Origin: Paramacrobiotus metropolitanus
Taxonomy: Eukaryota > Tardigrada > Eutardigrada > Parachela > Macrobiotidae
Assembly (NCBI RefSeq): GCF_019649055.1
Contig: NW_026570237.1
Location: 310,001-374,000 of the forward strand
Direction of reading: 5' to 3'
DNA: 64,000 nt
Within the stretch, counting starts at the first letter, position 1. The number at the start of each line of letters is the position of its first letter. This document shows, one piece after another, positions 20,965-49,602 of the stretch. The notes under the pieces are model-generated. The model worked only from the letters and a program-made list of their open reading frames with translations. It ran no database searches and was not told the DNA's origin. Position numbers and translations under genes: made by a program.

Positions 20965-21020
20965 ATGGTGGCTCCAGGCTATGTCTAATTTCGGTGTAGA
21001 CGTGACCTTTTCTAATATTC

Positions 21021-32836: not shown

Positions 32837-33114
32837 TGCCTCTGGGGGGATGCCGAGCTCCTGTGAGGCTGGACACACTCCCGAATCCACGAGAGAACGA
32901 CGGTCGCCGGTGTCTGTGCGTGCTCAAAAACATCAAATTCTCTTAATCCATTTTATCACATCATTTCCGTAAAGGCACAATTCCATTTAATACAATGTGA
33001 ATAAAGAGATCCAACTATAAAAATATATCAAATCATTAGGAACAGATCAACAGTAACAACAGATCAACAAAGTTTTAATCAAATGTAGACTAGGATCCTC
33101 CATTTCTGACTCGT

Positions 33115-33600
33115 AAAGGTCACAGGTCCTGTCCACCGTTTTCCGCACTTTGGCCCATTCCGCTCCGTTGAGCAATTTCGCGCATCCGTAATGCGACTTT
33201 CATCACAATCCGCTTGAGAATCAGGTGCGTATCAAGTACGACTTAGGAATACTGCTTCGCTCTTTGGAATATGGTGCGTATCATTCGTACGACTTCAAAA
33301 TGAGATCCAATAAAGGTCATGGAGGGACGTCAATGAAGACAAGCGTAGTTCGCTTCCTCCCTAATAAAGGTCATCCTTTGTTGAGATGATCCGTTGAGAT
33401 GTGCGACTCGTTTTGGGTTAATGGTCCCAAAGGTCATGCGACTTGAATTCCGATACGGTGACTCTGTTGGGCAATTGATGATCCCAAAGGTCATCCCACT
33501 CGTCAAAACTTCTGTTAAAGGTCATGGAGGAACTTAGCCGATTTTCTGCGGCTTCAAGCACTTCTTTGCTTGCCTCCCTGGTAAAATTTGCAGTTTGACC
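33115..33600 (-). repeat. 3' UTR cluster of AAAGGTCA motifs
   Basis: Plus-strand AAAGGTCA at 33,115, about 33,311, 33,366, 33,429, 33,486 and 33,517, plus one TGACCTTT near 33,595. Six of the seven point the same way, opposite to the majority orientation in the coding region. Several are followed by TGGAGG or TCC..T, so short flanking blocks are shared too. Confidence 0.8.
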
Positions 33601-33644
33601 TTTCCGTCACACATCCAACTTCAATATGCCTCGAGCGGCCAGAG

Positions 33645-33900
33645 TGCCGGCAAGTTTACCGTAGCATCTCTGATGGGGCCGGCTAGTTACCGCATCGAGT
33701 TTACCCCATGAAATTTCCACCTTAAATCTTTTACTCTTGTTCGCCGCTTGTGGCTAACATCCATTACTACGAGAAATCCGGCTTGGTTACCGTAGTTTTT
33801 CTCGTTTTAATTTGAACACTGAATCGCTTAAAAAGAGTGCCGGCACAGTTTACCGTAACAACTCTAATGAGGCCGGCTAATTGCCGCATTAAGTTAACCT
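33645..33900 (-). repeat. Two copies of a GCCGGC/TTTACCGTA module
   Basis: At about 33,648-33,705 and 33,839-33,898. Each has GCCGGCA, then GTTTACCGTA, an ACTCT or ATCTCT, then GGCCGGCTA and TTACCGCAT or TTGCCGCAT. A diverged relative (GTTTTACCGTAACGG, then GCCGGCTGACTGCCGTAG) lies in the 5' leader near 48,763-48,830. CCGCTTGTGG is also shared (33,744; 48,905; 49,113). Such sharing between the two ends could serve RNA pairing or packaging. Confidence 0.6.
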
Positions 33901-33902
33901 CA

Positions 33903-34658
33903 TCAGTATTCCACCTGTTGTCTTTCTCTCAAATCCAAAGGAAGCTTCGGTGCGTATGCGTGTATTGAAGGTTCACCTGGAGGCGTAAGCCGTAAACCAT
34001 CTGGTCCAGTCTCGTCCAAGTTTGGACCCAATGACGGTAGAATGCCTCTCGGTCGCCTTCCTCCTCTGTGTGGCGAATTACGATGAGGGCGCTGCGCTCC
34101 AAGTTGCTGCGGTGTTCTCATACGTGGCGCTCCGATATCCGACAGTGACAAGCCTCCCGTCTCCGGAAAAGGCGGTAATATTGGAGATGACCTTTGTGAT
34201 CGTGGTGGAGTTCCGCTAAATCCACCATGTCCCATAAATCGACTCGGTGTGGTCTGTTGCGGTGGCGGCATCAGCATTCTTGCCGGTCCCATTATCACCT
34301 GCGACGGTCCCGCCGGTGGGGTATACGATCCTGGATACGGTTGATAAGGGGCGCTCGTTGCTTGTCCCGAATACTGGGTTCCGGCAGGTGAGCCGTGGTG
34401 CACCCAGTTAACCGTGTCCTGATAATTCGTCTGCTGTCCTGGATCGTGGTACACGTAATACCCCTGTCCGCCGTAGTAACCTCCTTGGGTTGTTCCAGAT
34501 TCGTTCTGAGCCGTTCCCGCTGATGACGTGGATCCTTCACCATATGAGGTGTCATAACCGTATTCACCTTCCATTCTTATAGGTGTTGATGCTTTTAGTG
34601 GGTTTCCAATACTTTCCGAGTCTGAATTATCCGAATTTTGTCGTTCCAATCTGTCCAT
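33903..34658 (-). CDS. ORF3: Tyr/Gly/Pro/Gln-rich low-complexity protein
   Basis: 251 codons from an ATG at 34,658. An acidic Ser/Asp-rich start (SDNSDSESIG) leads into Tyr-Gly-Gly repeats (GGYYGGQGYYVYHDPGQQ), then Pro-rich segments (PYQPYPGSYTPP, MPPPQQTTP) and an Arg-rich C-terminal third (HRGGRRPRG). There is no signal peptide, membrane helix or cysteine pattern, so it is not an envelope. Composition is prion-like, of the kind that phase-separates or binds RNA, and PPPQ could act as a budding-type motif; these are inferences. It sits 126 bp after Pol ends, in a different frame, so it would need its own message or reinitiation. Confidence 0.6.
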   Translation of the reverse strand: MDRLERQNSDNSDSESIGNPLKASTPIRMEGEYGYDTSYGEGSTSSAGTAQNESGTTQGGYYGGQGYYVYHDPGQQTNYQDTVNWVHHGSPAGTQYSGQATSAPYQPYPGSYTPPAGPSQVIMGPARMLMPPPQQTTPSRFMGHGGFSGTPPRSQRSSPILPPFPETGGLSLSDIGAPRMRTPQQLGAQRPHRNSPHRGGRRPRGILPSLGPNLDETGPDGLRLTPPGEPSIHAYAPKLPLDLRERQQVEY

Positions 34659-34784
34659 TAACTGTGCTTACCTTCTATAAAACGAAACAATAAAGGTTAA
34701 CTTTTTGCACAGTGGTGACCTTTCTTTTTTCCTTTTCAACTCCTATTTTTAATTTATTGTGACCCCTTATTTATGTCTATGTGG

Positions 34785-37700
34785 TTATTTGTTCTCTCGT
34801 CCTTTAGTTATCCGATCAAGAAGTTCTTTCTCGGCTGCATCCTCAGGTTCGCCCTTTTGGGTCAATAAGTCCGTAGGGGTCGGTTTCTTTTTCTTCTGTT
34901 TGACTTTCCGCTCGTTAATTGCTTTCGCTATATCACGGCCCAATTGTTCAGCTTTTGATTTGACCGCTTCTATCTCCTCTTCTCTCTTTTTTATGAGGTC
35001 ATTCTCATAACCGGTAACAGTGCGTGGTTCGAAAAGATTCGGGTCACGCTCTGACGTCTCAGCGTCCGTACGCTGTTTCGAAAGGTCATCCTTATCTCCG
35101 GTAGCAGTGCGTGGTTCGAAAAAGGATTGTTGCAAGTCCTTTTTGGAGGTACGCTCTGGTACTTTGGAGGTCGGTTCGTTGTCTTGTTCCAGTGACCTTT
35201 CCGCCAAATTACCAGCCTCCGCGTTCAACTTAATTGTGACTGCAGTTTCAAAGTCTTTGTCCTCTTTCCGCTTCCTTCCTTTCTTCTTCTTCGTTTTATC
35301 TCCGTTTAACCCATTCGTTTGACCTTCTCCCATTTCGGGTAGCAGAGGTGGTTCGAAAAATGGCTTCTGTTGTGTGACTGAGTCATTTTTCGGACTCCGC
35401 TCTGATTCGTCTTCTTTTCCGTTAGCTTTATCCGTTTCGGGTAGCACAGGTGGTTCGAAAAAAGGTTTTTCCGAATCTTTTTGAGTACACTCTGTTGCCT
35501 TTTCCTCATCTGGTAATGGAGGGTGCCATGGTTTCAACCGGTCGATCGAAACCACCTTCAAGTCTGCTTCCTTCTTCGGGTTCTGCTCAATGACCTCGGC
35601 TTCGTTTGGTCGCGGGAAACTGAGAATTTTCCACACTTTATCGTATTTCGACTTAAAGTCCGATTGGTTTTCTTTTTTTCCTTGTTTCGTATCCTTTGGT
35701 AGCCGTATCAATACGAAATCTCCCACTTTAAAGTTCGGCTCAGACTTCTTCTTGTTGTAAATCTCCGCGTTCTTCTCATAAGCGTCTTTAATATTACACC
35801 GTGCCACTTCTTCTGCAAAGGTCAAGTTCTTTTTCATGGTCTCTACCCATTCATCTGGAGTTCCGTAATCATCGGGTATATTCGTTTTTGTAACCACATC
35901 TTCCGGCATTGTCATTTCTCTGCCGTGTAGCATATAGTATGCTGAATATCCCGTTGTGGCGTGTACGACTCTGTTCATCGCCGAAATAACATATGGGAGA
36001 TACTTGTTAAACTTTCGCTCATTTCCCGCTTTTAGGTATTGCGCCAAGCCATCAGCAATCGTCTGCATCTGTCTCTCCACTTGGCCTTGACCTTCTGGGT
36101 GATACGCCGTTCCAAATGTGTGTTTAATTTTAAACACATTGGTGACCTTTGCCAATACTTCAGCTGTAAAGTGTCGTCCGCGATCCGTATGCAGGATGTG
36201 CGGTGCTCCGTTTACCAATATCACGTGCTTCACGAATACTTTAGCGAATTCTTTAGCCGTTGCTGTTTTCATCGGTACCGCGATCACGTATTTCGTCAGT
36301 TGGTCGATAAATACCGCTATGTACTTGTATCCACGTTTCTTGGTCGGTAACAAAGGTCCTTTCAAGTCAGCATATACTCGGAAGAACGGATGTCCCACTT
36401 TAATCTCTTGCAGCTTTCCAGGTGGACATTTCCTCGGTGTTTTACGGAACTGACATCCTTGACAGGCGAGTATGTAATTCTTCACGTCTGTACTCATCCT
36501 GTCCCAGTAATATCGGAGTCTTATTGCTGACAATGTTTTCTCGAATCCCAAATGTCCCGCTGCTTTCTCGTCGTGCAATGCGTGGATTATTGCTCTTCGC
36601 ATGGACAACGGAACAACATATGACCTTTCAAGTTTTCCATTTTTATCCTTTACTCGGTATAATATACCATTCCATAACTGGTAATGCACTTCGAATTTCG
36701 ATCTTGTTTCCGCGTCTGGTAGATGTTCCAATTCATCTATAATCATTGCCAGATGAGGATCCTTCAATTGTTTGTTTCGCAATTGTAGATTGGAGTCATC
36801 CTCCTCTTCTTCGTCACCTTGCAGGTTAACGATGCGCACTGTTGCTGTACTGAGTTCGTTCCAATCTCTGATGACCTTGCATCGCGGTAGCGGTTTGTAC
36901 CTCTTTTTCGCCTGTTTTGGGAATCTCAGCAACTTAATCGGACACTCGTTCAACGCTTGTGTAACTTTGTCCGTTTCCCAAAGGTCATCTCCTTTCTCCG
37001 CTGCTTTATCAAGTCCAGTGACCTTACCATTATGAACTTCGGCTTCTACTTCAAGTCCGGTGACCTTTAAGTCACTAACGGTGGGCAACCAACTTTTTAC
37101 CCGATTCACATTAGCTTCTATTTCAGCCGACTCATTCGCCGTAGCTGAAGTGACCTTTAATCGTTTCTCCCTCTGTTCCACCATCTGCAGGAACAGCTGT
37201 CCAACTTCAATTGCTGGTTCCTTCGTATCAAACTCCTTCTTGTAATCCTCGAAATTCGGAATCTCGTCAAATTCTTCTTCGTGACACGTTGGCCCTTCGA
37301 TCGGTGCTCTCGATAACGCGTCCGCATTGTCACAGTACTTTCCCGGTTTATATTCAATTTTGAACTGGTGACCTTGCAACGCCATTGCCCATCTTGTCAA
37401 ACGCGGGTTCATTCCAACTTTGTTCGTCTCTGACCTTAGCAGATTGGTCAGCGCCTGATGATCCGTCCTTACGGTGAACTCTGCGTAATCAATGTACGGC
37501 TTGAATTTCCTGACAGCGAACACAACTGCCAGACATTCCCATTCCGTTACACCGTAATTTTTCTCCGCTCCATGTAAGACACGACTGGCGTACGCGATCG
37601 GATGTCCATCTTGTGACAGTACGGCTCCGATTCCTTCTTTGCTCGCGTCGCATACAATGACGGTCGGTTTCGCGGGGTCAAACTTTGCCAGTACTGGACC

Positions 37701-39119
37701 TTCACACAACAACTTCTTCAAACTATTGAACTCTTCTTCATGTACTGCCGTCCAGTCCTTTTTCACGTGCTTATCTTGTCTCAGCAGTTCATATAAGTGG
37801 GAAGTCTTCTGTGCGTATCCCATTATGAATTTGCGATAATAGTTCGCCAGTCCAAGGAATGACCTTAATTGTCTTTCAGTCTGAGGCCGTTTGAATTCGG
37901 AGACCGCGGTGACCTTTTCCGGGTCCATACGTATTCCGTCTTCGCTGAGTATATGACCCAGAAATCCCATTTGTCTCATTCCAAATTCGCACTTGGTTGG
38001 TTTAATCGTGAATCCCGCTTCAACCAGACTCATTAAGACATTTCGCAGATTCTGCATGAAGATCGCCCAAGTCTTTCCGGCGAAGATTACGTCGTCAATG
38101 TACCCGAAAACGCAACCCTTTCTTTTCGCTTTCGAGAGAACTTTATCCATACACAATTGAAACGTTGCTGGTCCGTTGCATACGCCAAATGGCATTCTTT
38201 TAAATCGGTACATTCCATCTTGTGTTACAAAGGTCGTCTTGTTGATTGACGCTGGGTCCATTGGTATCTGCCAGAATCCACTTTGTAAATCCATTTTTCC
38301 GTAATATTTGTTGCCTGCGCATGCATCGAGCAACTCATCCGGATTTGGTAACGGGTAATTATTCTTCCTCGTTAGCTTGTTAAGCATGATGTAATTGACG
38401 CAAAATCTTGTTCCCATTGTTCCATCACCGTTTTTCTTTACTGCCAGCACGACTGGGAAACTCCACTCGGCGTCTGACGGCTCGATTACATCTTGTGCCA
38501 ACATCTCTTCGATATGCTTCGTTATAAACTCGCGGCCTGTCCAACTCGTTCTGGCCGGGTTACATTTTACTGGTTTCGCATCTCCCGTATCAATTACGTG
38601 GGTGACCCGTTTCACATCTCCATACGGTTTCTTTGATGTGGGTAAGACTTTCCAGAATTCCCAAAACGCGTTGTACACGTCGTTTTTCTGCTCTTGGGTA
38701 AGGTCAGGTCCCAATTTCAGGTTTTCGATTATCTTTTTAAGTTCAGCTTTCGTTGTCTCATCCACCTCAGGGTCTTCGAGTACGTTCTTTACTGTCCCTG
38801 CGTTGACCTTTACATTCTCCATGTGTTCGTACGGCTCAACGTAGCCGAGAAGCTGATTTTTCTTCACGATTCGGTATTTGCTACTGTGATTTGCGATAAC
38901 GATTTCGAAGTATTTTCCCCTGTGGTCCGTCACTCCTGCCAACGGTTGCACTTCAGTTTCCACTTGTGGGACCGGTGTAAACATCAGCTTGTTTTGAGCC
39001 GGTGCATATTTTCCCATCTTGACCTTTACACGTGTGCAGTTTGACGGTTTCAATTTGATTCGCTGATCGCTGTAAACTTTGATCACGTCCTTCGACATTC
39101 TAGCTTTTTCCACTTTCAA
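34785..39119 (-). CDS. Pol: RT, RNase H, integrase with repetitive C-terminal tail
   Basis: 1,444 open codons; the first ATG is at about 39,098. RT: KMDLQSGFWQIPMD (box A), FKRMPFGVCNGPATF (box B), YIDD near residue 340, GFLGHIL and LANYYRKFI. RNase H: CDASKEGIGAVL near residue 490, YGVTEWECLAVVFA, RTDHQALTNL. Integrase: zinc ligands HALHDEKAAGH and CQGCQ near 846-886; catalytic Asp in YADLKGP (about 916), HTDRGRHF (about 978) and Glu in GQGQVERQ (about 1016). All catalytic residues are present. Residues about 1,200-1,444 form a charged tail with repeats (PFFEPPVLPE, PFFEPPLLPE, SFFEPRTATG, LFEPRTVTG). Codons of the AAAGGTCA motif give ERSP, KVT, DDLW and similar peptides. Likely made as a Gag-Pol fusion and cleaved by the element's protease. 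The RT core has few motifs, as expected if protein constraint limits them. Confidence 0.93.
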   Translation of the reverse strand: MKVEKARMSKDVIKVYSDQRIKLKPSNCTRVKVKMGKYAPAQNKLMFTPVPQVETEVQPLAGVTDHRGKYFEIVIANHSSKYRIVKKNQLLGYVEPYEHMENVKVNAGTVKNVLEDPEVDETTKAELKKIIENLKLGPDLTQEQKNDVYNAFWEFWKVLPTSKKPYGDVKRVTHVIDTGDAKPVKCNPARTSWTGREFITKHIEEMLAQDVIEPSDAEWSFPVVLAVKKNGDGTMGTRFCVNYIMLNKLTRKNNYPLPNPDELLDACAGNKYYGKMDLQSGFWQIPMDPASINKTTFVTQDGMYRFKRMPFGVCNGPATFQLCMDKVLSKAKRKGCVFGYIDDVIFAGKTWAIFMQNLRNVLMSLVEAGFTIKPTKCEFGMRQMGFLGHILSEDGIRMDPEKVTAVSEFKRPQTERQLRSFLGLANYYRKFIMGYAQKTSHLYELLRQDKHVKKDWTAVHEEEFNSLKKLLCEGPVLAKFDPAKPTVIVCDASKEGIGAVLSQDGHPIAYASRVLHGAEKNYGVTEWECLAVVFAVRKFKPYIDYAEFTVRTDHQALTNLLRSETNKVGMNPRLTRWAMALQGHQFKIEYKPGKYCDNADALSRAPIEGPTCHEEEFDEIPNFEDYKKEFDTKEPAIEVGQLFLQMVEQREKRLKVTSATANESAEIEANVNRVKSWLPTVSDLKVTGLEVEAEVHNGKVTGLDKAAEKGDDLWETDKVTQALNECPIKLLRFPKQAKKRYKPLPRCKVIRDWNELSTATVRIVNLQGDEEEEDDSNLQLRNKQLKDPHLAMIIDELEHLPDAETRSKFEVHYQLWNGILYRVKDKNGKLERSYVVPLSMRRAIIHALHDEKAAGHLGFEKTLSAIRLRYYWDRMSTDVKNYILACQGCQFRKTPRKCPPGKLQEIKVGHPFFRVYADLKGPLLPTKKRGYKYIAVFIDQLTKYVIAVPMKTATAKEFAKVFVKHVILVNGAPHILHTDRGRHFTAEVLAKVTNVFKIKHTFGTAYHPEGQGQVERQMQTIADGLAQYLKAGNERKFNKYLPYVISAMNRVVHATTGYSAYYMLHGREMTMPEDVVTKTNIPDDYGTPDEWVETMKKNLTFAEEVARCNIKDAYEKNAEIYNKKKSEPNFKVGDFVLIRLPKDTKQGKKENQSDFKSKYDKVWKILSFPRPNEAEVIEQNPKKEADLKVVSIDRLKPWHPPLPDEEKATECTQKDSEKPFFEPPVLPETDKANGKEDESERSPKNDSVTQQKPFFEPPLLPEMGEGQTNGLNGDKTKKKKGRKRKEDKDFETAVTIKLNAEAGNLAERSLEQDNEPTSKVPERTSKKDLQQSFFEPRTATGDKDDLSKQRTDAETSERDPNLFEPRTVTGYENDLIKKREEEIEAVKSKAEQLGRDIAKAINERKVKQKKKKPTPTDLLTQKGEPEDAAEKELLDRITKGRENK

Positions 39120-39207
39120 TCTTCTGACTTTAATATCCTTTTCGTTTCCTCATCTACTTCGTCATCTTCATCCAAGTCCATTAAATCCTCTTGCTCCGAA
39201 AGGTCAC

Positions 39208-40760
39208 TTACACCTGAATCTTCCGAAGTTGTTGAGTTATCGCTTGAACTCGTCCACTCGGAGTCGGAGTTACTGCTCTCATATTCTTGTGCAGTGGCTT
39301 GACCTTTGTCATGCCTTTTTCGAGTGGACGCTCATCAACTCCTTCATCTTCTGATGAAAGGTCACTTTCGTTTTCTCGCGAATCGCTAAGTTTTTTCGCT
39401 TTCGAATTTTTGAGCAGGGGTTTGTCCCCTTCTTTGCCTTTCGCCCGTTTCGTGCGGCTACTCGGGTGACTCGCTACTCGAATTCTCGTTGGTGACCTTT
39501 CTGATTGGTCGGAGTTTGACCTTTCTTCGTCCGATTTTGACTTTTCCAGTTCATTTATTTCTTCGCGGCTCGTTAATGGCTTTTCGGTCAACTCGACCGG
39601 CGGACATTCCTCACCGTTATCGAGTGACCTTTCCCCGTTTTTTGCCTCAGTTACTGGGTTTTGTTGTTCGTTCGATATCCTTTCAACTTCCTCTTTAAAC
39701 CTTTTCCACATTTCACCTCTGTCCGTTAACATCTGTGCAATGTCGAAAGCCGACTTTGAACTTTCTTCTGTTTCATTCGATTGTCCTTCGGCTATCTCTT
39801 GAACTGGTTCCTCTTTCTCTGCTTCTTTGGCAGTCCCTTTATTGGCTTCATCCTGTTGAACTGTTTCGTAACCTTTAGGTCGTTTAGGACCAACGAAAAT
39901 GCAGTTTGCCATCAGTTCTTCGGTGACCCATTCATCATTCGGAATCGTTTCATACATGCACCACGTATCACCACCTCGTTCTGGGTAGTCCACTCCATCT
40001 GGATCTGGTGCAAAGGTCACCTTTTTCTTTTGCATTAATCCCGGTAATCTTCTTTTCCGGGTTACCTGTAATTCTCGCATCTCTTTTACATCAAATCTGG
40101 GGATTTCCTCTTCAAATTTATTCCAATATTTTTCGAATGTTTTTTCGTTTCCCTCTTTCAACGCATTATAGTACACTTCAAGTGATTCGTAGACAGGTGT
40201 ACCAAGTCCTGCCGGGAAGATGATCGTTCTCCCTTCACCTTTATACATGTGGTTCACACGGAAGTCCCAGAAAAGGTCAACTCTCGCTTCTTCCCACATT
40301 TCTCCTTCTTCGGTCATCTCTTCTATCTCTCGTTCAAATCTCCTTTCTGTTGCTACCGGATCGAGAGGATCTTGGATTCCTTTCTCGACACGTTGCAACC
40401 AATGGTTTAGCCATCTGCCTCTTCCAATTATAAAACTTTCCACGCATGACAACCACGTTCGATATCTATTCCAATGATACCGTTCGATGTGTGGTTTCCA
40501 CATTTCGTTTGTCCGCATGATGCTTTTCGCTTTCTTTTGGGCATGACCTTTAAGGTCTGCTAATGCGGCATTACATCTTGGCCATTCTGAAGGGTCATCT
40601 TGAGAGGCATTTTCACAACACTCCGCGCATTCCCATTGTGGTTGCACTCTGCACGGATCCTCAAAGTAACCGTGGTGACAACTCCCGGCTCGTTCTTCTG
40701 GAGTTAATGTCCTTTGACTCGCTTCAGGTTTAACCTGTTCCTGTACTGTGGTATCTTCCT
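39208..40760 (-). CDS. Accessory region between protease and RT, with Cys/His-rich N-terminal module
   Basis: Open frame 40,647-39,208 (479 codons), extended upstream in the same frame to about 40,760 without stops. It begins with a Cys/His cluster (SCHHGYFEDPC, then WECAECC and WPRC) that could bind zinc. A Trp-rich helical domain follows (MWKPHIERYHWNRYRTW, RGRWLNHWLQRVEKG, WEEARVDLFWDFRVN), then VTFAPDPDG, then a long Glu/Lys/Ser-rich tail. I do not recognise the fold. The last part probably changes frame near 39,290: an adjacent frame there reads an acidic Ser/Asp run toward Pol. Ty3/gypsy elements normally have protease next to RT, so this 2-kb block is unusual. Confidence 0.6.
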
Positions 40761-41123: not shown

Positions 41124-41129
41124 GTTCTG

Positions 41130-42063: not shown

Positions 42064-42191
42064 TTGTCCTTTGCTGGAGTGCTATGACCTTTCAATATCT
42101 CGCTCAACTTATCAATCCTATGTGGGACGTTAGTCCGAACATCGTAATATTTTCGCGGCTTTGTCTTTTTTGTTGCTTCTCTGGAGCCATT

Positions 42192-42455
42192 TTACCACTG
42201 GTGACCTTTTCGCACATTCCGCACTTGCTCATTTGCTTTTGTGCTGTGCACGTGACCTTTAGTCACTTCATTTATCGTCTGATGGATTAGTTCCTCTTTA
42301 CGGTTTTCATTTCGCTTATCTTGCATCTTCTCAATAACTTTGCTTGTTATTTGGTCAGCTTGTTTCAGTTCATCTGCTTCGCTGTCTTTCATCTCATCTG
42401 GTGACCTTTCATATGTAACCATATCATATCCCTTTTCGGTCATCCATTGCATCAC
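42192..42455 (-). CDS. Gag-Pol linker segment, Lys/Glu-rich
   Basis: 87 codons, opening at an overlap GTGATG with the end of the preceding frame. Contains YERSPDEM and TKGHVHSTK, both encoded by the AAAGGTCA motif. No domain. Probably part of one long polyprotein. Confidence 0.4.
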   Translation of the reverse strand: MMQWMTEKGYDMVTYERSPDEMKDSEADELKQADQITSKVIEKMQDKRNENRKEELIHQTINEVTKGHVHSTKANEQVRNVRKGHQW

Positions 42456-42988
42456 TTTGCAGATACTTCATTGTTCGTTTTCGTTGGGTCAATTTGCGAA
42501 GACATCCCGTCTGTTCGGGCTGGTGACTTGTCATTGGCATCCTTTTGCAGTGCTTGTGATAAGTCCCGTGACCTTTCAACTGCGCTACTCTGTTGCGTTT
42601 GCGCTATCTCATTTGACCGTCCTTTTTGTTCATTTTGCGCTAAGTCCTGTGACCTTTCGTTGCGCTTCATGACAAATCCGCCACCTGTCAGCTTTTGTAT
42701 GGGGACTTTTTCTCCATAATTCGGCGGTTTATCCTGTGGTGGAGCATTACGTGAATGATTCCAGTCAGCGAATGTCTTCTTATATTCCTCTGGATTGAAT
42801 ACTGGGACTGGGTTCGGTGACCCTTGCGCTGGTTTCCCGGTAACCAACTCTTCTAGTCGCTTTCTTTCACATTGCGTTCGCAACTGTTGCATGTCCCAGT
42901 AGTCCTCTTGTGACATTTTCGCTTTCTGCTTTGCCTTCGGCGTTACGGGTATCCACATCCCGTGATTGCCATTCGGTCTGTAGGCCAC
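42452..42988 (-). CDS. Gag-Pol linker segment with MWIPVTPK
   Basis: 178 codons. Begins GMWIPVTPKAKQKAK, a diverged relative of the Trp-Met-Pro repeats further upstream, followed by a Gln/Arg/Glu helix (YWDMQQLRTQCERKRLEEL) and a polar stretch with RSQDLAQ and RSRDLSQ near-repeats. No known domain. Confidence 0.4.
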   Translation of the reverse strand: MAYRPNGNHGMWIPVTPKAKQKAKMSQEDYWDMQQLRTQCERKRLEELVTGKPAQGSPNPVPVFNPEEYKKTFADWNHSRNAPPQDKPPNYGEKVPIQKLTGGGFVMKRNERSQDLAQNEQKGRSNEIAQTQQSSAVERSRDLSQALQKDANDKSPARTDGMSSQIDPTKTNNEVSAK

Positions 42989-43433
42989 TTTTTTGCCACT
43001 TTTCCTTCTGTTGCAGCGTTATTGCATCTACAAGTGAGTCATCGGAGTTCTGTTGTGCCAATTCGCCATTCTTTTGCTGCGCTGTTCGCAGTGTCAAGTC
43101 TGTTTCTTGACCTTTTAACACGACGCTGTCGCCGTGACCTTTCGCATTCGCACTCGCTCCTTGACCTTTAACTTGGACTTTTCCAACAGAAGGTGACCTT
43201 TCATCTTTACTAATGACGGTGATATTCTGCTTAATCCATTCTTGCCTTATTCGCTTCTCTTCTTCGTCTTCTGAACAATTCCAAAACTTTGGCTTTGGTT
43301 CCCCGTAACAATCGCACCTTGGCTCATTCGCCTTGTCGTTTTCTGCCAAAATTTTTCGGGATTTTGCGTGCTGTTCATTTTCCTCTTGCGCAGTATCGTT
43401 CTGCGGTGGTGATTTGGTCGTTCGACTTGCCAT
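42867..43433 (-). CDS. Gag-Pol linker segment, polar, Cys-poor
   Basis: 188 codons, overlapping both neighbours. CDCYGEPKPKFWNC in the first third is a possible small Cys cluster. The rest is Gln/Lys/Asp-rich with KGQGASANAKGHGD and DERSPSVGKV, which come from the AAAGGTCA motif. The real protein probably switches to the next frame near 42,960. Confidence 0.4.
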   Translation of the reverse strand: MASRTTKSPPQNDTAQEENEQHAKSRKILAENDKANEPRCDCYGEPKPKFWNCSEDEEEKRIRQEWIKQNITVISKDERSPSVGKVQVKGQGASANAKGHGDSVVLKGQETDLTLRTAQQKNGELAQQNSDDSLVDAITLQQKEKWQKSGLQTEWQSRDVDTRNAEGKAESENVTRGLLGHATVANAM

Positions 43434-43899
43434 TTATCTGTTTCCGGAACCATTCGTGGTGCATTTCCACTTCTTCTGCGGTATCGGTTTGCGGTTTCTT
43501 TTGATTTAACAGCGCTTGTCGAGTCTTGGCATTACGTAATGCACGACGTTCAGCTAACACTTTCTCGCTGCAATACGGTGACCTTTCATTTTGCTGCACT
43601 TTTTGCAGTGTCGCGCTACCGTCACGACAATTCCCACTCGCAGTACCATTCTGCGGTGACCTTTGGTCCCGTTGCACGTTTCCACTCGCAGTACCATTCT
43701 GCGGTGACCTTTGGTTCTGTGACGGTATCCCCATAACCGTTCCATTTCCTTTTTGTGATGACGGCATCCATATAGCCGTTTCTCTTTGCTGTGGCGGCAT
43801 CCATCTAGCCGTTTCTTGTGGTTGCGGCATCCATATAGCCGGTCCATTTTGCTTTTTCGCTGACGGCATCCATATAGCCGTTGCAGTGGTCACGTTCAC
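43375..43899 (-). CDS. Gag-Pol linker with tandem Trp-Met-Pro repeats
   Basis: 174 codons. The first 50 residues contain four repeats of about 12 residues: AIWMPSAKKQNGP, AIWMPQPQET, ARWMPPQQRET, AIWMPSSQKGN. Two NQRSPQNGTASGN-like repeats follow, each encoded over an AAAGGTCA(C) site. Repeats with a fixed Trp suggest a multivalent binding surface, but no family is recognised. Confidence 0.5.
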   Translation of the reverse strand: MNVTTATAIWMPSAKKQNGPAIWMPQPQETARWMPPQQRETAIWMPSSQKGNGTVMGIPSQNQRSPQNGTASGNVQRDQRSPQNGTASGNCRDGSATLQKVQQNERSPYCSEKVLAERRALRNAKTRQALLNQKKPQTDTAEEVEMHHEWFRKQINGKSNDQITTAERYCARGK

Positions 43900-43979
43900 T
43901 GCAGTACTATTCTGCAGTGGTGACCTTTCCCTTTTATCCGGTGGTTTAGGGTCGGGTCGATCAGTAGGCTCACCGGTGC

Positions 43980-44633
43980 CTACTGATCTTGCCCGTTTCC
44001 CTGAACCGGCGCCCCACCTTGTTGTACGCCTTGCACATTTGCTTGTTGTTGTCCGATATTATTTGCCGGGTTAGGATTCTGTCCGCCACCGTTATTATAT
44101 TGGCCGCCACCCTGTTGGTAGTTTCCTTGGCCGCCGCCATTGTTCTGGCCTCCTCTGAAGTTTCCGCGGCCGAAGCCTCTGTTTCTTCCTCTGAAGCCGC
44201 CGCGGCCGAAGCCTCCACGGCCGAAGCCGCCATTCTGGCCACCGCCATTTCCATTTCCGTAGTTCCCGTTTCCATTCCCTTGTTGGTTTTGGAAGTTTGC
44301 CTTATGTTGGTACCATTGGGTGATGAGGTCATATCCGTTTGCGACCGCTGGGCGCCAGCCACCTATAGCTCGGAGGCGTTGCCACTCGTTAAAGGCAAAC
44401 AGATTCGGGTTCTGTTCTGGTGGTGTATTGGCGAACTTGCACCCCTGTGTCTGATGGTTGCCGTACATACAGTACTGGCACATCTGCACGTTGTTCGCCA
44501 CCCATCCATCAATCATCTGGAACTTGAACTCTGTTCGTGATCCTTGATTCTGCTGTTGATTCCTCTGAAGTTTCCTTGACCTTGACCTCGTCCCTGGTTC
44601 TGGAAGTTCCCTGACCTCCATTCCAGTTTCCAT
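43980..44633 (-). CDS. Gag nucleocapsid: CCHC zinc knuckle and Gly/Arg/Asn-rich tail
   Basis: 217 codons. Around residues 50-66 there is CQYCMYGNHQTQGC, a C-x2-C-x4-H-x4-C zinc knuckle that binds RNA. After a Trp-containing stretch the tail is FGRGGFGRGGFRGRNRGFGRG, an RGG-type RNA-binding run, followed by Asn/Gly/Gln-rich sequence. The upstream 125 bases overlap the previous frame, and a one-base shift near 44,590 would fuse them. A single knuckle plus RGG tail is a less common nucleocapsid layout. Confidence 0.75.
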   Translation of the reverse strand: METGMEVRELPEPGTRSRSRKLQRNQQQNQGSRTEFKFQMIDGWVANNVQMCQYCMYGNHQTQGCKFANTPPEQNPNLFAFNEWQRLRAIGGWRPAVANGYDLITQWYQHKANFQNQQGNGNGNYGNGNGGGQNGGFGRGGFGRGGFRGRNRGFGRGNFRGGQNNGGGQGNYQQGGGQYNNGGGQNPNPANNIGQQQANVQGVQQGGAPVQGNGQDQ

Positions 44634-45279
44634 TTCCGTATCCGTTTCCGCCGAAGTTTCCGTTACCCCCTCCTTGTTGTGGTAACCCCATATTCGGAGG
44701 CATATTCTGAGGTGGCGGCTGGGCTACATTCTGGGGAGCCACATTCTGGGCTACTGGCCTCACCTGGGCCGCTGCCTGTATCGCTGCCACCATTGCGTAT
44801 GTTAACGGTTGCCCGGTCTGACTGTCGATAAAGGTCACTTCCTTTGTGACCTCTTGGGCCGGCGCCTCTCTACGGTACTCGACTGGCTGTTGGACTGGTG
44901 CAGCCGCCATCCTCTGTTGCGGTACATTTTCAACTTGGCCTTGGCGGATGGTCACGTATTCCTGATTACGTTGACCTTTAGGCGCCTTATATTTATCTTC
45001 TCCCGCTGACCAGTGACGGAAGAAATCTTTGATTTCGGTTGGAGTCCTGCACTGTTGCGTGCGTAGTGCCTTATAAAGGTCACCATCCACTCTACATCCT
45101 TCGATCAGGAATCCGACTGCCTGCTTTTCAGTTATGATCTTCTTCGCCTTGTATTTCATAATCGCTTGATAAAACTGATCAAGCGATTCCTTTCCGAGGT
45201 CAAATTTCCTTGCCATGGCTTCTCGTAAGCCAAGAACTTCCTCGTCACGGTCTCCATATTCATCTTTAAACTTGGCCAT
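44509..45279 (-). CDS. Gag core, C-terminal half
   Basis: 256 codons. EWMAKFKDEYG, LREAMARKFDLGKESLDQFY, FLIEGC and IKDFFRHW are the second half of a Ty3/gypsy-type Gag core, which assembles the particle. A Gln/Pro/Gly-rich linker follows. The first half is in the preceding frame (ending near AKTWFEGER). The frames join at GAGAGAGAAATC near 45,345, where a one-base slip is enough. Confidence 0.75.
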   Translation of the reverse strand: MAKFKDEYGDRDEEVLGLREAMARKFDLGKESLDQFYQAIMKYKAKKIITEKQAVGFLIEGCRVDGDLYKALRTQQCRTPTEIKDFFRHWSAGEDKYKAPKGQRNQEYVTIRQGQVENVPQQRMAAAPVQQPVEYRREAPAQEVTKEVTFIDSQTGQPLTYAMVAAIQAAAQVRPVAQNVAPQNVAQPPPQNMPPNMGLPQQGGGNGNFGGNGYGNGNWNGGQGTSRTRDEVKVKETSEESTAESRITNRVQVPDD

Positions 45280-46351
45280 CCATTCTGTAATGGTGTATTC
45301 CGTTTCTTCTTGGAGTGCGATTTCTCTCTCCTTCGAACCAGGTCTTCGCCGGTCCTTTGACTGCGCTGGCTATTTCAATCAAAATCTGATCGTCAGTGAG
45401 ATGATATGTCCGTTGGGTGTCTTTGACCAATTGTGTCCACCCATTCACTGCGTCGCGACTTCCATCAAAGGTCACTAGGTTTGTCTTGCGCCCCATCGAT
45501 TGGAGTGCGTTCACTAATCTCTGTGTCGCATCATTGTCTTCTGCCGTACTGGAGTCACTATCGTCATCGTCCTTATTTCGCTTCGCTTTTCCGTAGCGGG
45601 ACTTCCTTGGGCGTTCTTGCCGGCTAGACGGTCTATCCTGTTTCCTTTCATCAATGAAGATTTTCGTTTCAATATGTGGATGAAATTGGGTGGGATCACC
45701 ACGATTCGAATGGGAATAAGTTTCCGATGGTGGCTCCTTGTCATCCTTGACCTTTTCCCCGTCCTTTTCGTTTTTGACACTTCCTCTGCCAGTACCGGTT
45801 CGTAGCGGCATATCAAAGTGGAAGCTTTTGCCCGTGCCCGTTTCGTGCGCCTTGCTGTAACTGGGCGGGGGCGACTCCACTGTTGAAGTCCTGACTCCAT
45901 ATTGCAGAAGCTGTTCATCTTTGTGCTTATTGGACATAACAAGCGCCTTATTCTCATCCTCAAGGCGACGGACTTTCAACTGGACTTCCTCTTTCTCCGT
46001 TTTCAAGTTCTGATTCTCCTCCTTGACCTTTAACATATGTTGGTGGAGTTGGAAAGTCTTCTCCTGAATGACCTTTTCAGTGTCATTCTCCACCTTTTTA
46101 ATGTGTTCCGCCAACTGGGTCACATCCCTTTCCAGCTTCGTGTATTCCTCGACTGCTGCTTTCAGTTGGTTTTTCGTCTGGGTGACCTCATCTTCTCTTG
46201 TCATCACCGTTTGGGTCATATCAATCAGCTCCGTGTTGAGCTTGATAATCTCCTGCGTCTTCTGGTGGACTGATTGTTGCCACTCCTTATCTTTCAATTC
46301 AAGTACCGTGACCTTTTCATCCAGGAGGTGTGCCTCGTGTTCCCACCTCAT
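45266..46351 (-). CDS. Gag middle: coiled coil, linker and Gag-core N-terminal half
   Basis: 361 codons. The first 150 residues continue a coiled coil (LELKDKEWQQSVHQKTQEIIKL...). Then come a Ser/Lys/Asp-rich linker and the start of the Gag core: TNLVTFDGSRDAVNGW, ILIEIASAVKGPAKTWFE. The start overlaps the stop of the preceding frame as ATGA, but the coiled coil reads through if one base is added to an A run at 46,380-46,383, so a frameshift in one long Gag is more likely than two genes. Confidence 0.65.
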   Translation of the reverse strand: MRWEHEAHLLDEKVTVLELKDKEWQQSVHQKTQEIIKLNTELIDMTQTVMTREDEVTQTKNQLKAAVEEYTKLERDVTQLAEHIKKVENDTEKVIQEKTFQLHQHMLKVKEENQNLKTEKEEVQLKVRRLEDENKALVMSNKHKDEQLLQYGVRTSTVESPPPSYSKAHETGTGKSFHFDMPLRTGTGRGSVKNEKDGEKVKDDKEPPSETYSHSNRGDPTQFHPHIETKIFIDERKQDRPSSRQERPRKSRYGKAKRNKDDDDSDSSTAEDNDATQRLVNALQSMGRKTNLVTFDGSRDAVNGWTQLVKDTQRTYHLTDDQILIEIASAVKGPAKTWFEGERNRTPRRNGIHHYRMDGQV

Positions 46352-47811
46352 GCCTTGCTCGGCAATTGTCTTAGCAGTCTTTTCAACTCGGTATTCTCTT
46401 CGGTGACCTTTTGAACATCTTCTTTCAACGACTTGTTCTCTTCCATCACCTGCTTAATTTCGTTCTTCAACCGCACACCTTCAGTGGCTGTAAGCTCCCT
46501 CAGGTCCTTAGCCACTTTGACAGCGTCGTCGGCTCTCCTCTGATGATCCTGTGATTCTTTTTGAAGGGTTCCGATGTTCTCGTCCCGTAACTTCAATTCG
46601 TTTCTCAGCTTAAACACCTCATTGGTGTTTGTCAACAATCGTTGAGTAGCGTCGACGAGTTTGGCCGCGTATTCATCTCGCTTGGCTTCCGCTTCGGTGA
46701 CCTTAAGTTTCAGTGAGTCACATTCGTCCTTCAATTCCGCTAAGTGCCGTGACCTTTCGGCTGATTCCTCTGACATGCTCTCGTTGAGGTCACTGACTGC
46801 AAGATGACCTTCCATTTCTCTGTCATCCACCATTTTCAAGTACTCTTCAGCGAGTTCTTTTTGACGCTCGTATTTGATCTTCCATTCGTCCGCTGCACTT
46901 TCCAAATCCACCTGTTGTTGTTCCAGCTCATAAATACGAGCATCCAGAGATCCTATCCGATTTTGATATTCCTGTTTCTTCTTCGTCACTAGGCCTTCCT
47001 TGGCTTCGAGTTCTTCTTCCAACTCCTTCACGCGTCTCTTGAGAGTTGACGTGGGGCTGTTCGGTGATGGCGGTCTAACATTGATGACCTTTCCAGTTTG
47101 TGTCCTTTCAATAAGGTGCTCGGGTATGTCCTTAAACGGTGTCATCCCTTCAGCACGGTCAGCTTCTTTCATCGCGGTCTGGAAGGACATATTCATTGTC
47201 GCTTCATCATCCGTGAAGTATGACTCGTTCGATTCGTCTGAGACCATCGGAGTTGCCCAAAGGTCATCACCGACAGTCTTATCGTGCAGTGAAAGGTCAT
47301 CCAATCCCAGTTCAGCCAATTCCATTTCTGTGACCTTTGTCCTGTCAGCTTCCGACTGAACCAGGTTTACATTTTTATCCTGTTCAGTAGTTCCGATAGT
47401 GGTAGCATCCGACTGTGATGCTCCAACTAGTTCCACTCCTTTCCCTGTGGGTATTTCCTCCCCGGTGACCTTTTTCTGGTTCATCGGATCACTTCCCGCC
47501 GTAGACGCGGGAGTGTGCTTCTGGTCGTCGCTTGAACTTTCCTGATTGGCGACCGCCTCGAGCGCCTTCTGATAAGTGCTATCAGAGCCTCGTGAATCCT
47601 TCTTCTCGAATGCCTTGGGCGCTCGAGTGTTCCGCTCATGTCCAACTGGACGTGAGTACGGGTACAGATCCTTTTTGTACGGATTTGGTGCGCTTTGCTG
47701 TGAGCTGCGGGAGCTTTTGCTTCCCTGACTGCTGTTGGATGTCGGTTCCTCTTGGTCTTTGTCCATGTTGATCGGATAACTTGGACGCTCCTGCCAATTG
47801 TTCTCACACAC
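46348..47811 (-). CDS. Gag N-terminal extension: disordered head and long coiled coil
   Basis: 487 codons. The Ser/Asn/Lys-rich head (SSQGSKSSRSSQQS) and acidic middle give way at about residue 260 to an uninterrupted heptad coiled coil of about 220 residues (LKRRVKELEEELEAKEGL ... LRNELKLRDENIGTLQKE). Together with the next frame the coil exceeds 350 residues, far longer than in usual Ty3/gypsy Gag. Motif-derived peptides KVTEMEL, DDLSLHD and DDLWATP occur. ATG at 47,766 or an upstream near-cognate start. Function inferred as particle architecture or anchoring. Confidence 0.65.
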   Translation of the reverse strand: MCENNWQERPSYPINMDKDQEEPTSNSSQGSKSSRSSQQSAPNPYKKDLYPYSRPVGHERNTRAPKAFEKKDSRGSDSTYQKALEAVANQESSSDDQKHTPASTAGSDPMNQKKVTGEEIPTGKGVELVGASQSDATTIGTTEQDKNVNLVQSEADRTKVTEMELAELGLDDLSLHDKTVGDDLWATPMVSDESNESYFTDDEATMNMSFQTAMKEADRAEGMTPFKDIPEHLIERTQTGKVINVRPPSPNSPTSTLKRRVKELEEELEAKEGLVTKKKQEYQNRIGSLDARIYELEQQQVDLESAADEWKIKYERQKELAEEYLKMVDDREMEGHLAVSDLNESMSEESAERSRHLAELKDECDSLKLKVTEAEAKRDEYAAKLVDATQRLLTNTNEVFKLRNELKLRDENIGTLQKESQDHQRRADDAVKVAKDLRELTATEGVRLKNEIKQVMEENKSLKEDVQKVTEENTELKRLLRQLPSKA

Positions 47812-47883
47812 ACGTTATTGTATGGTTTATTCAAGTATCCTAAGGGTCACTCTGTACCTCCGAAATTTTTCTAAGTCCTTATT

Positions 47884-48358
47884 AAAGGTCACTTTTCGAC
47901 TGAAAAATTTCGACCAAGTCCCGTTTTAAAGGTCACTTTTTCGATAAAAAGTTCGAGAGATTTGCCCTAAAAGGTCACTTTCGGACAGAACTTCGAAACC
48001 GTTCTTACAGTTCAGAACACGTTAACGATTGAATTCCTACAGCTGCTGATATCGCTGTACTACCAATCAACTCGATTCAGCTTTATGAAAGGTCACTGTT
48101 GATCACTTTCAGATCATAAAGATCACTAAAATGGGTCAATTTGATCAATTCCAACTTTTTGGTAAAGGTCACTTTTCAAAGTCAAAAGTCAACTTCTGGT
48201 CTCAAAGGTCACTTTCCGACTCAACTCAGCTCAAAAGATCACTTTCCAGCTCAATTTGCAAGTTAAAGGTCAATTTCCAGCTCAATTCTATCAAAGGTCA
48301 CTTTCTAGCTCGGTTTTGATCAAAGGTCACTTTTCCTTTGTCTGAACTTAAAAGGTCA
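47884..48358 (-). repeat. 5' leader array: ten copies of AAAGGTCAC
   Basis: Plus-strand AAAGGTCA at 47,884; 47,928; 47,970; 48,088; 48,164; 48,204; 48,265; 48,293; 48,322; 48,351. Most extend to AAAGGTCACTTT(T/C), which is nearly its own complement about the GTCAC/GTGAC core. All ten point the same way, giving GTGACCTTT in the element's sense RNA. Spacing varies from 27 to 118 bp. The array lies between primer site and Gag start and carries no long frame, so it is probably regulatory or structural. Confidence 0.9.
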
Positions 48359-49227
48359 CTTTCCGTCTCACTTATCTCATCTCAAATCAAATTTCCCATT
48401 ATCGCTCAAGTTCAACGGAAAATCCCCATTCGGGTTGTTTACCTCGTTCCGATTGGTCTGCTAGCTCAAAATGTTCAGTTCAAATTTCAGCCAATCACAG
48501 TTCAGATAACTGACCAATCATGTTAATCCGTTTAAAATTTTTATCTGCCTGACGTCACGGTCAACGGCCAGACATGCGCGCCGCGTGCAAAACTCCGCCT
48601 ACTTCTACGCTCAGCTCAGTACGGGCCAATGAAAAATGAGAATTTTACCATCTAACCAATCCCGTAATTAATAACGGGTTTTCTACCTGTTTCCTCGTCC
48701 GTTCCACGAGAATCGATCCAGATGATCCAGATTCTTCTTCCACTGTCCGTTCCCGCGCTGCCGCCGGTTTTACCGTAACGGTTGTGCCGCACGCTTTCGG
48801 TGAGTTACTGTGCCGGCTGACTGCCGTAGCAACAGTAGTGGCGCTCTACTCCAGTTTGGAGGAGTCTGATCTGTCTTTTCCCGTGCACCCCTTTTGGCGC
48901 TTCGCCGCTTGTGGCCCACGGCTTAGGCTTCGCTGAAGCCTTGCCGAGTAACGGTGACACCAGTGCAGGTCTTCGCTGAAGACTCCGCACCGAGGAACAC
49001 CGCCGACTGAACTCTTTGACTCTTGCACAGCTAAGGAAACAGTACGGTTCTTCGCTGAAGATCCCGTACCGAAAACCGAAGCTGGAAAATCCACGTCAGA
49101 TGAGGCAGTTCACCGCTTGTGGTGTGCGCTTTGCTGTGAGTACAGACCTGTGCCTTACTGGTCGGGTTCCACGTCAATAACAGGCCAACTTTGCCTGACA
49201 CAAATCAAATCAGAGAACCGCTGTCGG
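48359..49227 (-). other. 5' leader upstream of the motif array
   Basis: About 870 bp between primer site and array with no coding frame. It holds three short hairpins with CTTCGCTGAAG and two CCGCTTGTGG copies shared with the 3' UTR. A packaging or dimerisation role is possible. Confidence 0.6.
48926..49046. repeat. Three CTTCGCTGAAG mini-hairpins
   Basis: CTTC and GAAG pair around a GCT loop at about 48,929, 48,969 and 49,051. Each is followed by a (G)CC or (A)CC-ending stem extension. Regular use of the same hairpin near the primer site suggests an RNA-level role in the leader. Confidence 0.5.
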
Positions 49228-49238
49228 CTCTGCTACCA
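49228..49238 (-). promoter_or_regulatory. Primer-binding site for initiator tRNA-Met
   Basis: Directly after the 5' LTR the sense strand reads TGGTAGCAGAG, complementary over 11 bases to the known 3' end of eukaryotic initiator tRNA-Met (CTCTGCTACCA). It fixes the LTR boundary and the element's direction. Confidence 0.85.
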
Positions 49239-49598: not shown

Positions 49599-49602
49599 TT
49601 CT
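49599..49602. repeat. Target-site duplication, right copy (TTCT)
   Basis: Matches 32,477-32,480. Removing one copy and the element gives a LINE frame that runs on without a stop or shift. Confidence 0.8.

Follow-up and report, generated by a model that had tools for sequence, protein, structure and literature searches.

A long LTR retrotransposon of the tardigrade Paramacrobiotus metropolitanus carries the octamer AAAGGTCA 74 times in its internal region of 16.4 kb, and comparison of its genomic copies shows strong selection on this word as DNA, independent of protein coding. Judged from sequence, the most likely reader of the octamer is a nuclear receptor of the host, of the NR4A class. The element lies in a window of 64,000 nucleotides (GCF_019649055.1, contig NW_026570237.1, positions 310,001-374,000 of the forward strand), to which all coordinates below refer.

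Structure of the Element

Two LTRs of 357 bp (32481-32837) and 361 bp (49239-49599), which are 97.8% identical, bracket the internal region. The profile matches place the coding strand of the element on the minus strand, and in element sense the former is the 3' LTR and the latter the 5' LTR. Adjoining the 5' LTR, TGGTAGCAGAGC (49227-49238) reads as a primer-binding site, which we take to be similar to the 3' end of initiator tRNA-Met. The leader (47812-49238) contains 10 octamers in a single orientation, TGACCTTT in the sense direction, several of them spaced about 28-44 bp. It is followed by the gag region (42452-47811), which in the window copy is broken up into several overlapping open frames and has one CCHC knuckle at about 44439-44480, by an aspartyl protease frame (41461-42063; PF13975, E 5.6e-9, and PF13650, E 5.7e-9), by a 479-aa frame without a match in Pfam (39208-40647) and by the pol frame (34785-39119; PF00078, PF17917, PF17919, PF17921, PF00665). 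Thus ordered, the protease lies upstream, and reverse transcriptase (228-391), RNase H (456-582) and integrase with zinc domain and core (836-1008) share one frame; homologues include K02A2.6-like proteins. The LTR pair and this domain order argue for placing the element among the Ty3/gypsy (Metaviridae-type) LTR retrotransposons.

Downstream of pol, 33903-34658 (minus strand) encodes the N-terminal remnant of an accessory ORF that is 1389 aa long elsewhere (across 248 aa it is 95.6% identical to L033:5438-9607). Longer copies contain three accessory ORFs, partly broken, between pol and the 3' LTR; the window copy lacks the remainder of this ORF and the two others, and its alignment to other copies breaks at about 33925. 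The 3' non-coding region (32838-33902) holds 7 octamers, 6 of them TGACCTTT in sense. The insertion appears to split a reverse-transcriptase frame, presumably of non-LTR type (30878-32485, plus strand; PF00078, E 2e-28), which seems from a reading of the flank by eye to continue beyond 49600.

Octamer Density

The initial annotation of this DNA had estimated about 95 AGGTCA hexamers and about 74 octamers in 32837-49238, and exact counting gives 96 (34 plus, 62 minus) and 74 (28 plus, 46 minus). The array occupies 32838-49238 in both orientations with a mean spacing of 209 bp. The whole window holds 117 hexamers and 80 octamers, leaving 21 and 6 outside the element, where about 17 hexamers had been given for the remaining 47 kb. 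The chance levels had been put at about 8 hexamers and about 0.5 octamers; 300 first-order resamples gave means of 7.3 (maximum 16) and 0.92 (maximum 4), and a second-order Markov estimate for the octamer is 1.39. Three of the outside octamers (30657, 30768, 31702) adjoin the left end of the element. Two others (21003, 25184) lie in the second Ty3/gypsy remnant of the window (about 20.5-28.3 kb), which had been described as essentially free of the word, as had the LTRs; for the latter this is correct, with no octamer in 30 LTRs (10.7 kb) of loci L001-L030, the window's two included.

Within the element, 10 of the 74 octamers fall in the leader and 64 in the body and 3' region; 55 lie within 34785-47811, a stretch of mostly open frames. 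A pure insulator of the gypsy kind leaves the sites in the coding body unexplained. No regular spacing was found (CV 0.95 vs 0.98 under random placement). No single-base variant exceeds 6 copies in the window element (TAAGGTCA, 6 vs 0.6 expected). The octamer is never followed by G (0/74) and C is favoured next in the element family; the avoidance of G is weaker genome-wide.

Two further comparisons, which the initial annotation had named as possible refutations, left the claim of saturation standing. Synonymous-codon shuffles of the pol frame, which contains 11 octamers, gave means of 0.39 in sense and 0.12 in antisense, against 8 and 3 observed. In addition, eight other long copies (pieces) from the same genome have similar densities, 2.8-7.4 octamers per kb. 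Saturation is a property of the element family, with about 75 sites per element.

Selection on the Octamer

Among eight copies, the octamer was intact at all eight bases in 508 of 557 aligned site comparisons, which are not independent because the copies are mosaics, each set against one window. Other 8-mers were retained at 48.5-70.3% per copy. These retention figures, like the footprint and synonymous analyses, come from alignments of at least 300 columns. The difference widens with divergence: in segments of 80-90% identity 127 of 140 octamers were kept against 43.6% of other 8-mers, and below 80% identity 37 of 53 against 16.2%. The footprint is exactly eight columns wide, with identities of 97.5-98.6% inside and 84.5-96.2% across 30 flanking columns, and all eight positions are constrained about equally. 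In a comparison of single 8-mers over alignments of at least 150 columns (octamer total 508/559), five of the 75 other 8-mers with at least 6 sites were kept as well as the octamer or better; one of the five, AGGTCATC, overlaps the octamer and the other four overlap mutually in GTACCAGAGGC.

Repeats of K-V-T, E-R-S or K-G-H might in principle have produced the word as a by-product of protein coding or codon usage, and some arrays do resemble formerly coding repeats. The octamers, however, occupy both strands and all three sense frames, and the eight in the 479-aa frame alone use every sense frame and two antisense frames; they also fill the non-coding leader and 3' region. Moreover, synonymous changes within octamers amount to 6/716 against 125.6 expected from codon-matched positions, a count that leaves out non-synonymous third positions as well as any codon altered at base one or two, and in which the copies' many broken frames stay unmended. 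This synonymous freezing is decisive and, with frame usage and codon shuffles, rules out the protein explanation, to which we assign practically no probability.

Orientation is non-random in the non-coding parts, which would not be expected of a simple cloud of binding sites. The leaders of nine copies contain 10-14 octamers each and none in the opposite orientation (0:10 to 0:14), and for the 3' region, measured in seven copies besides that of the window, the ratio is 6:1 or 6:0. The one-orientation arrays of the leader may stem from short tandem duplication. Segregation (sense AAAGGTCA:TGACCTTT 0:10 in the leader, 1:6 in the 3' region and 43:12 in coding sequence) would also suit RNA-RNA pairing, in which coding AAAGGUCA would pair with UGACCUUU of the leader and 3' region and thereby fold or dimerise the long genomic RNA for packaging or reverse transcription. 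The near-equal constraint on all positions fits this, and variants tolerated by G-U pairing show a small tilt (12 vs 4.4 expected; other transitions 4 vs 3.7). Yet 12 coding sites have the orientation of the leader and are kept in 81 of 93 comparisons, and the coding bias may be expected anyway because TGACCTTT would give a stop in one frame. Furthermore, the commonest lost form, AAAAGTCA (9 cells, perhaps one event), disrupts pairing, and pairing inside the octamer does not explain why G is avoided after it. Pairing therefore seems improbable to us.

Candidate Readers of the Octamer

Receptor classes differ in the bases they accept 5' of the half-site. FTZ-F1/SF-1 favour C at the first position of the octamer, ERR tolerates any base there, ROR/E75 favour T at the second position, and HNF4/RXR/COUP require a second half-site; a JASPAR matrix of NR4A2 is AAGGTCAC. 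Close pairs of AAAGGTCA occur 3559 times genome-wide against 46 in the reversed control, but only 97 times with a first base other than A (control 147) and 26 times with a second base other than A (control 105). Both 5' A are needed for the genome-wide pair excess. This requirement argues against FTZ-F1/SF-1, ERR and E75/ROR, which had been proposed when the word was first taken for an extended nuclear-receptor half-site, and fits the monomer site of NR4A; a receptor-type site as such is supported. The NR4A class was absent from the earlier candidates. The element word, with both its 5' A, is exactly the NBRE, which the consulted sections of one study give as the monomer site of NR4A receptors (PMC4777543), the class of Nur77, Nurr1 and HR38.

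The host has an NR4A gene (L069), the exons of which spell a DNA-binding domain and A-box that agree with NGFI-B (PDB 1cit; E 1e-51) at 77 of 87 residues; the best match outside NR4A has E 4.1e-33. Host zf-C4 matches number 63, counted exon by exon, of which 18 were read, leaving room for a different host factor of the same specificity. Among the receptor classes considered, only NR4A is known to have the octamer as its named monomer site, and with the requirement for 5' AA this makes another host factor very unlikely. The word is stricter than is expected of a transcription-factor site, which counts against NR4A. A receptor captured by the element itself was considered and rejected, since there was no zf-C4 domain in the Pfam-scanned ORFs and no nuclear-receptor-like cysteine pattern in frames of at least 150 residues.

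The main rival is a reader encoded by the element, which might act in anti-silencing or, through the octamer, mark the element's DNA to be packaged, imported into the nucleus or integrated. A small winged-helix (linker-histone-like) ORF and a C2C2/SR-rich ORF, among the three, some broken, between pol and the 3' LTR of longer copies, would be the candidates. A putative DNA-binding protein is encoded by the element and likewise by a sister family, an observation that weighs against NR4A. The winged-helix of the sister family scores above the Pfam linker-histone cut-off (24.9 vs 22.4 bits), but the three versions scanned from the window family fall below it (15.6, 15.7 and 14.8), and we know of no octamer specificity of linker-histone domains. 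A search with the winged-helix ORF found no relatives at E 0.001 and no useful PDB match, the second accessory protein searched had 13 matches, all from P. metropolitanus, and the predicted structure of accessory protein P0121 has a mean pLDDT of 47.1 and a pTM of 0.23. The exactness of the word recalls VANC21, whose binding is reported to drop drastically on single-base changes of its motif (PMC5735166). Under an element-encoded binder, identity of the octamer with a known host-factor site would be a coincidence. We consider such a binder possible but rather unlikely.

Related Families and Genome-Wide Pattern

A sister family is represented by a piece of 2.5 kb (L072) with 9 octamers against 0.17 expected, a density similar to that of the window family, although its accessory proteins are only 28-41% identical. 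By an eye count, the aligned parts of the two families hold 7 and 5 sites, of which only one coincides. A word common to diverged families suggests that the specificity of its reader stayed fixed while the elements diverged, which again weighs against an element-encoded binder; VANC targets differ between related families in the sections seen (PMC5735166). Two other Ty3 families of the same host (L070, L071) contain no octamer in 9.9 kb each, which agrees with an element-encoded binder and counts against NR4A. L070 is enriched in AACCGACC (13 vs 1.23 expected) and L071 has no comparably enriched word.

Octamers number 42562 genome-wide against 15522 in the reversed control. Much of the stock of perfect sites may thus be in these elements, as would suit a titration sponge that soaks up the receptor and disarms an NR4A-dependent host response without use for the element's own expression. 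A single new copy, however, would add only about 75 of the 42562 sites and so gain little private benefit. In addition, a single cluster accounts for 24 of the 100 plus-strand octamers listed for C1 (its first 832 kb), and the remaining 76 occur at about twice the control rate; the excess is therefore not wholly within elements. A sponge appears as improbable as pairing of RNA.

Proposed Role of the Octamer

We give about an even chance to recruitment of the host NR4A receptor along the whole element, keeping it accessible and transcribed. Distributed over leader, coding sequence and 3' region without a fixed orientation, the roughly 74 sites of a copy would load NR4A and co-activators, and the loaded receptor would hold the chromatin of the element open against silencing and make its transcription follow the activity of NR4A. 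In the leader, the dense array of one orientation could act as an enhancer beside the 5' LTR. More tentatively, the whole body of a retrotransposon lineage, coding sequence included, may have been rewritten as an NR4A platform, with positions turning over between families. Each stretch of this overlay code of exact sites would then recruit NR4A, evading silencing or responding to NR4A signals. If NR4A is the reader, monomer binding is expected to AAAGGTCAC and much more weakly to CAAGGTCAC, ATAGGTCAC and AAAGGTCAG.

In our judgement, coding-embedded words of a binding type are rarely seen frozen this cleanly at synonymous positions. Nature provides sites by the dozen in each element, numerous young copies and, as controls, word-free families. 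The system gives direct access to the ways in which animal transposable elements may withstand silencing and to the behaviour of a nuclear receptor given about 75 perfect sites in a row. It bears on whether a host receptor drives tardigrade transposons.

Comparison with Known Systems

VANDAL elements are DNA transposons. In the sections covered, the Arabidopsis motif of VANC21 (YAGTATTAY) is repeated within the element and tolerates no single-base changes, and the likeness lies in a short exact motif present many times per element, often in short tandem arrays (PMC5735166). According to the same sections, VANDAL binding is in non-coding parts and coding probes lack the motif, which varies from one related family to the next and has as its reader an element-encoded protein with DUF1985/DUF287 (PMC5735166). 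In the tardigrade, by contrast, sites run through coding sequence (55 of 74 in 34785-47811), and the same octamer, equal to a host receptor site, is found in two diverged families, one represented by the L072 piece. No DUF1985/DUF287 match was found by Pfam in the element ORFs scanned.

Ogre is a giant LTR retrotransposon with additional ORFs. Plant elements with aORFs, Retand and rotifer elements share the long internal region or extra ORFs, and the sections consulted do not mention a dispersed octamer (PMC7264820, PMC11963269, PMC5408684). Among the matches listed, we found nothing relevant on octamers dispersed in retrotransposons or linking tardigrade receptors with retrotransposons, and we do not claim their absence from print.

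The Su(Hw) insulator of Drosophila gypsy consists of about a dozen arrayed sites for a host factor and is confined to the leader. The 10 leader octamers of the tardigrade element resemble it as a host-factor-type array in a Ty3/gypsy leader, but most of its sites, 64 of 74, are found in the body and 3' region, and the words are unrelated. NBREs are usually single or few and are located at enhancers, whereas the tardigrade element has 74 in 16.4 kb, most of them in coding sequence. In the word itself the agreement with the NBRE is close: the octamer is identical (PMC4777543), the 5' AA is needed and C is favoured next, as in the JASPAR matrix of NR4A2.

Octamer Abundance, Coding Context and Orientation

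The internal region of the giant Ty3/gypsy-type retrotransposon (32837-49238) contains 74 copies of AAAGGTCA and 96 of AGGTCA by exact count on both strands, which confirms the saturation described in the initial annotation (about 74 octamers and 95 hexamers). The expected number of octamers in this region is 1.39 and the maximum among 300 resamples was 4. The rest of the window has 6 octamers and 21 hexamers (both strands); three of these six octamers (30657, 30768 and 31702) lie beyond the left end of the element, at most about 1.9 kb away.

A coding origin of the octamer was rejected. In seven open frames tested it occurs in each of the three sense frames and in two antisense ones, and the codon-preserving control proposed in the initial annotation (synonymous-codon shuffles, 1000 per frame) gave counts far below those observed on average. 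The pol frame has 8 sense octamers vs a shuffle mean of 0.39 (maximum 3), the 1389-aa frame of L033, a longer copy of the same family, 11 vs 1.15 (maximum 6) and the frame at 46348-47811 5 vs 0.46 (maximum 4); the weakest case is the frame at 33903-34658, with 1 octamer vs 0.02 (maximum 1). The non-coding leader and 3' region are filled as well. The octamer observation is real, has no coding explanation and shows that an exact binding word of host type is under strong selection.

Orientation of the octamers is the least explained feature. Read in the RNA sense, the leader contains only TGACCTTT, the form in the other orientation (10-14 per copy in nine copies), and this form makes up 6 of the 6 or 7 octamers in the 3' region (eight copies); within coding sequence the window element has 12 TGACCTTT vs 43 AAAGGTCA. 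Since the leader sites belong to a loose repeat with units of some 28-44 bp, their one-sidedness is possibly due to local duplication, and codon cost may cause the one-sidedness in coding sequence. Orientation bias is also the feature that best fits a rival explanation, in which octamers of opposite orientation pair within the element RNA.

Retention of the Octamer Among Copies

The window was aligned piecewise to eight other long copies. All eight bases were kept in 508 of 557 aligned octamer comparisons, which are not independent trials because the copies share history. Per copy, retention was 89-96%; other 8-mers reached 48.5-70.3%, and those matched to the octamer in composition 46-70%. 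This contrast widens with divergence: segments above 95% identity kept 110 of 118 octamers (other 8-mers 77.8%) and segments below 80% kept 37 of 53 (other 8-mers 16.2%). Identity was 97.5-98.6% over exactly the eight octamer columns vs 84.5-96.2% in 30 flanking columns. Within the octamer, 716 comparisons of synonymous third positions gave 6 changes, where 125.6 were expected from matched codons, and 47 of the 74 window sites were kept in every copy aligned at that place. Counting the motif in other genomic copies, a check proposed in the initial annotation, showed it in all eight (64-79 octamers each in the aligned parts), and in the reverse comparison starting from these octamers 82-96% were retained. 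Five of 75 8-mers with at least 6 sites each were retained as well as or better than the octamer; each of these five has 6-11 sites, one shares bases with the octamer and the other four are overlapping parts of a single string. The effect in these alignments is so large and sharp that chance has little room.

Variants of the word that differ by one base are uncommon in the window element: the most frequent is TAAGGTCA (6 copies), and two of these six places are the octamer elsewhere, one in eight copies and the other in five of eight. The octamer is followed by G at none of the 74 window sites, vs a background of 29% and 18% for G after CA on the two strands, and by C at 44; among 317 distinct 18-mers from the other copies, 2 have G after the octamer. 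Genome-wide, AAAGGTCAG occurs 4042 times (control 2427) and AAAGGTCAC 19414 times (control 3461), and the avoidance of G is weaker across the genome than in the element. AAAGGTCAG is present within sister-family stretches on contig C1; it also forms a satellite-like array of eight at about 91 bp (G000:C1:2537724-2538368), unlike the element sites. Close pairs of AAAGGTCA number 3559 genome-wide vs 46 for the reversed-word control. This excess is gone with a non-A first base (BAAGGTCA, 97 vs 147; B stands for three letters) or second base (ABAGGTCA, 26 vs 105), and therefore both 5' A are part of the word.

Element Structure and Related Families

Between the LTRs (32481-32837 and 49239-49599, 97.8% identical), the minus strand carries a leader, a gag region with broken frames and one CCHC knuckle, a protease and a 479-aa frame. 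It also carries pol, a frame of 1444 aa that spans RT, RNase H and integrase, and the beginning of an accessory frame. The element is inserted within another reverse-transcriptase frame. The best protein match of the window is from Paramacrobiotus metropolitanus (95% over 86% of the pol query). In the 169.8-Mb assembly (533 contigs), where the window is G000:C17:310001-374000, at least 31 pol matches, counting that of the window, cover most of the query at 88% identity or more (best 32 of 2547 candidates scored), and there are at least 40 LTR matches (best 40 of 268 candidates scored). LTR pairs are 98.9-100% identical in nine of ten compared, four of them 100%, the exception being the window's; the insertions of this family are therefore recent, as read from LTR identity. 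Segments of other copies show 72-99% identity to the window in a mosaic pattern, pointing to recombination between lineages. When 32838-49238 was compared with loci L031-L050, the copy on C60 had 99.3% identity in 44838-46397 and 89.0% in 46338-47896.

Some copies are longer, up to about 24 kb in the case of C261:40194-64311, whose accessory region has 22 octamers in 7.4 kb. L033 has accessory frames of 1389, 162 and 921 aa, which other copies carry whole or partly. The arrays at L031:1504-3061 and L043:4755-6425 are dense, with 19 and 23 octamers over some 1.6 kb and diverged spacers; they apparently grew out of a repeat at what was once the C-terminal end of the 1389-aa ORF.

A 2.5-kb piece of the sister family has 9 octamers (expectation 0.17), the most enriched 8-mer there. 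Its accessory proteins are 28-41% identical to those of the window's family, and an eye count over the aligned protein parts found 7 sites in L033, 5 in the sister-family locus L072 and one coinciding pair. Between these two families, in the parts aligned, the word and its density were kept and the sites turned over. On C1, two pair clusters, one from 2163976 and the other from 2484351, extend into matches of the sister-family protein P0132 (2178376-2180496 and 2499089-2500819). A 17-kb octamer cluster at G000:C1:202657-219706, with arrays spaced 18-24 bp and spacers of another kind, overlaps none among the matches listed for pol or P0132 and is perhaps a third family. The octamer is absent in 9.9 kb each of two other Ty3 families, so it is not common to all Ty3 elements of the genome. 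One is represented by L071, of the P0002 class (pol 46% identical to that of the window element), the other by L070, whose class shares about 70% identity with P0002. L070 (G000:C37:458500-468400) has AACCGACC 13 times vs 1.23 expected, which may be its own, weaker word.

Elsewhere in the window, direct repeats at 20783-20965 and 28068-28278 (77.7% alike) may be the LTR pair of the older Ty3/gypsy remnant. A repeat at 56269-56608 has an offset of about 94 bp and copies 85-94% alike, and a 304-aa open frame at 61251-62165 (minus strand) has an F-box domain (PF00646, E 1.5e-6).

Candidate Readers of the Octamer

AAAGGTCA is the NBRE, the site bound by monomers of NR4A nuclear receptors (PMC4777543). 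A zf-C4 search of P. metropolitanus gave 63 matches, exon by exon, of which 18 were read. A predicted gene at C45:296809-297642 and the following exon, its three exons joined by reading, encodes the A-box RTDSLKGRRGRLP as well as an NR4A DNA-binding domain; the product is identical to NGFI-B in 1cit at 77 of 87 residues (E 1e-51), and its best non-NR4A match is RXR (4.1e-33). NR4A genes have been described as immediate-early genes, inducible also by cellular stress (PMC7901948). Octamers across the whole body speak for a role of the element DNA as a whole more than for a promoter alone; this role might concern the state of the chromatin, or nuclear import of the cDNA with a nuclear protein as carrier. 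A receptor bound at about 5 sites per kb would keep the element open over its full length, and the leader array adjoining the 5' LTR would drive transcription with the receptor bound.

We give NR4A about an even chance of being the reader, because a protein encoded by the element itself is a live rival as binder. Longer copies encode two candidates. The first is a linker-histone-like winged-helix ORF between pol and the 3' LTR (L033:4710-5198, L072:1159-1629, L045:5816-6262 and L036:4930-5376), whose sister-family version exceeds the Pfam linker-histone cut-off (24.9 bits) and whose three versions in the window's family fall short of it. The second is a C2C2/SR-rich protein (L033:1646-4411 and P0121-P0133), some database copies of which are labelled as host-like proteins (fray2-like kinase, RNA-binding protein 25-like, trichohyalin-like, caldesmon-like) and are probably misnamed transposon ORFs. 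Self-recognition of this sort exists in VANDAL elements with their VANC proteins (PMC5735166).
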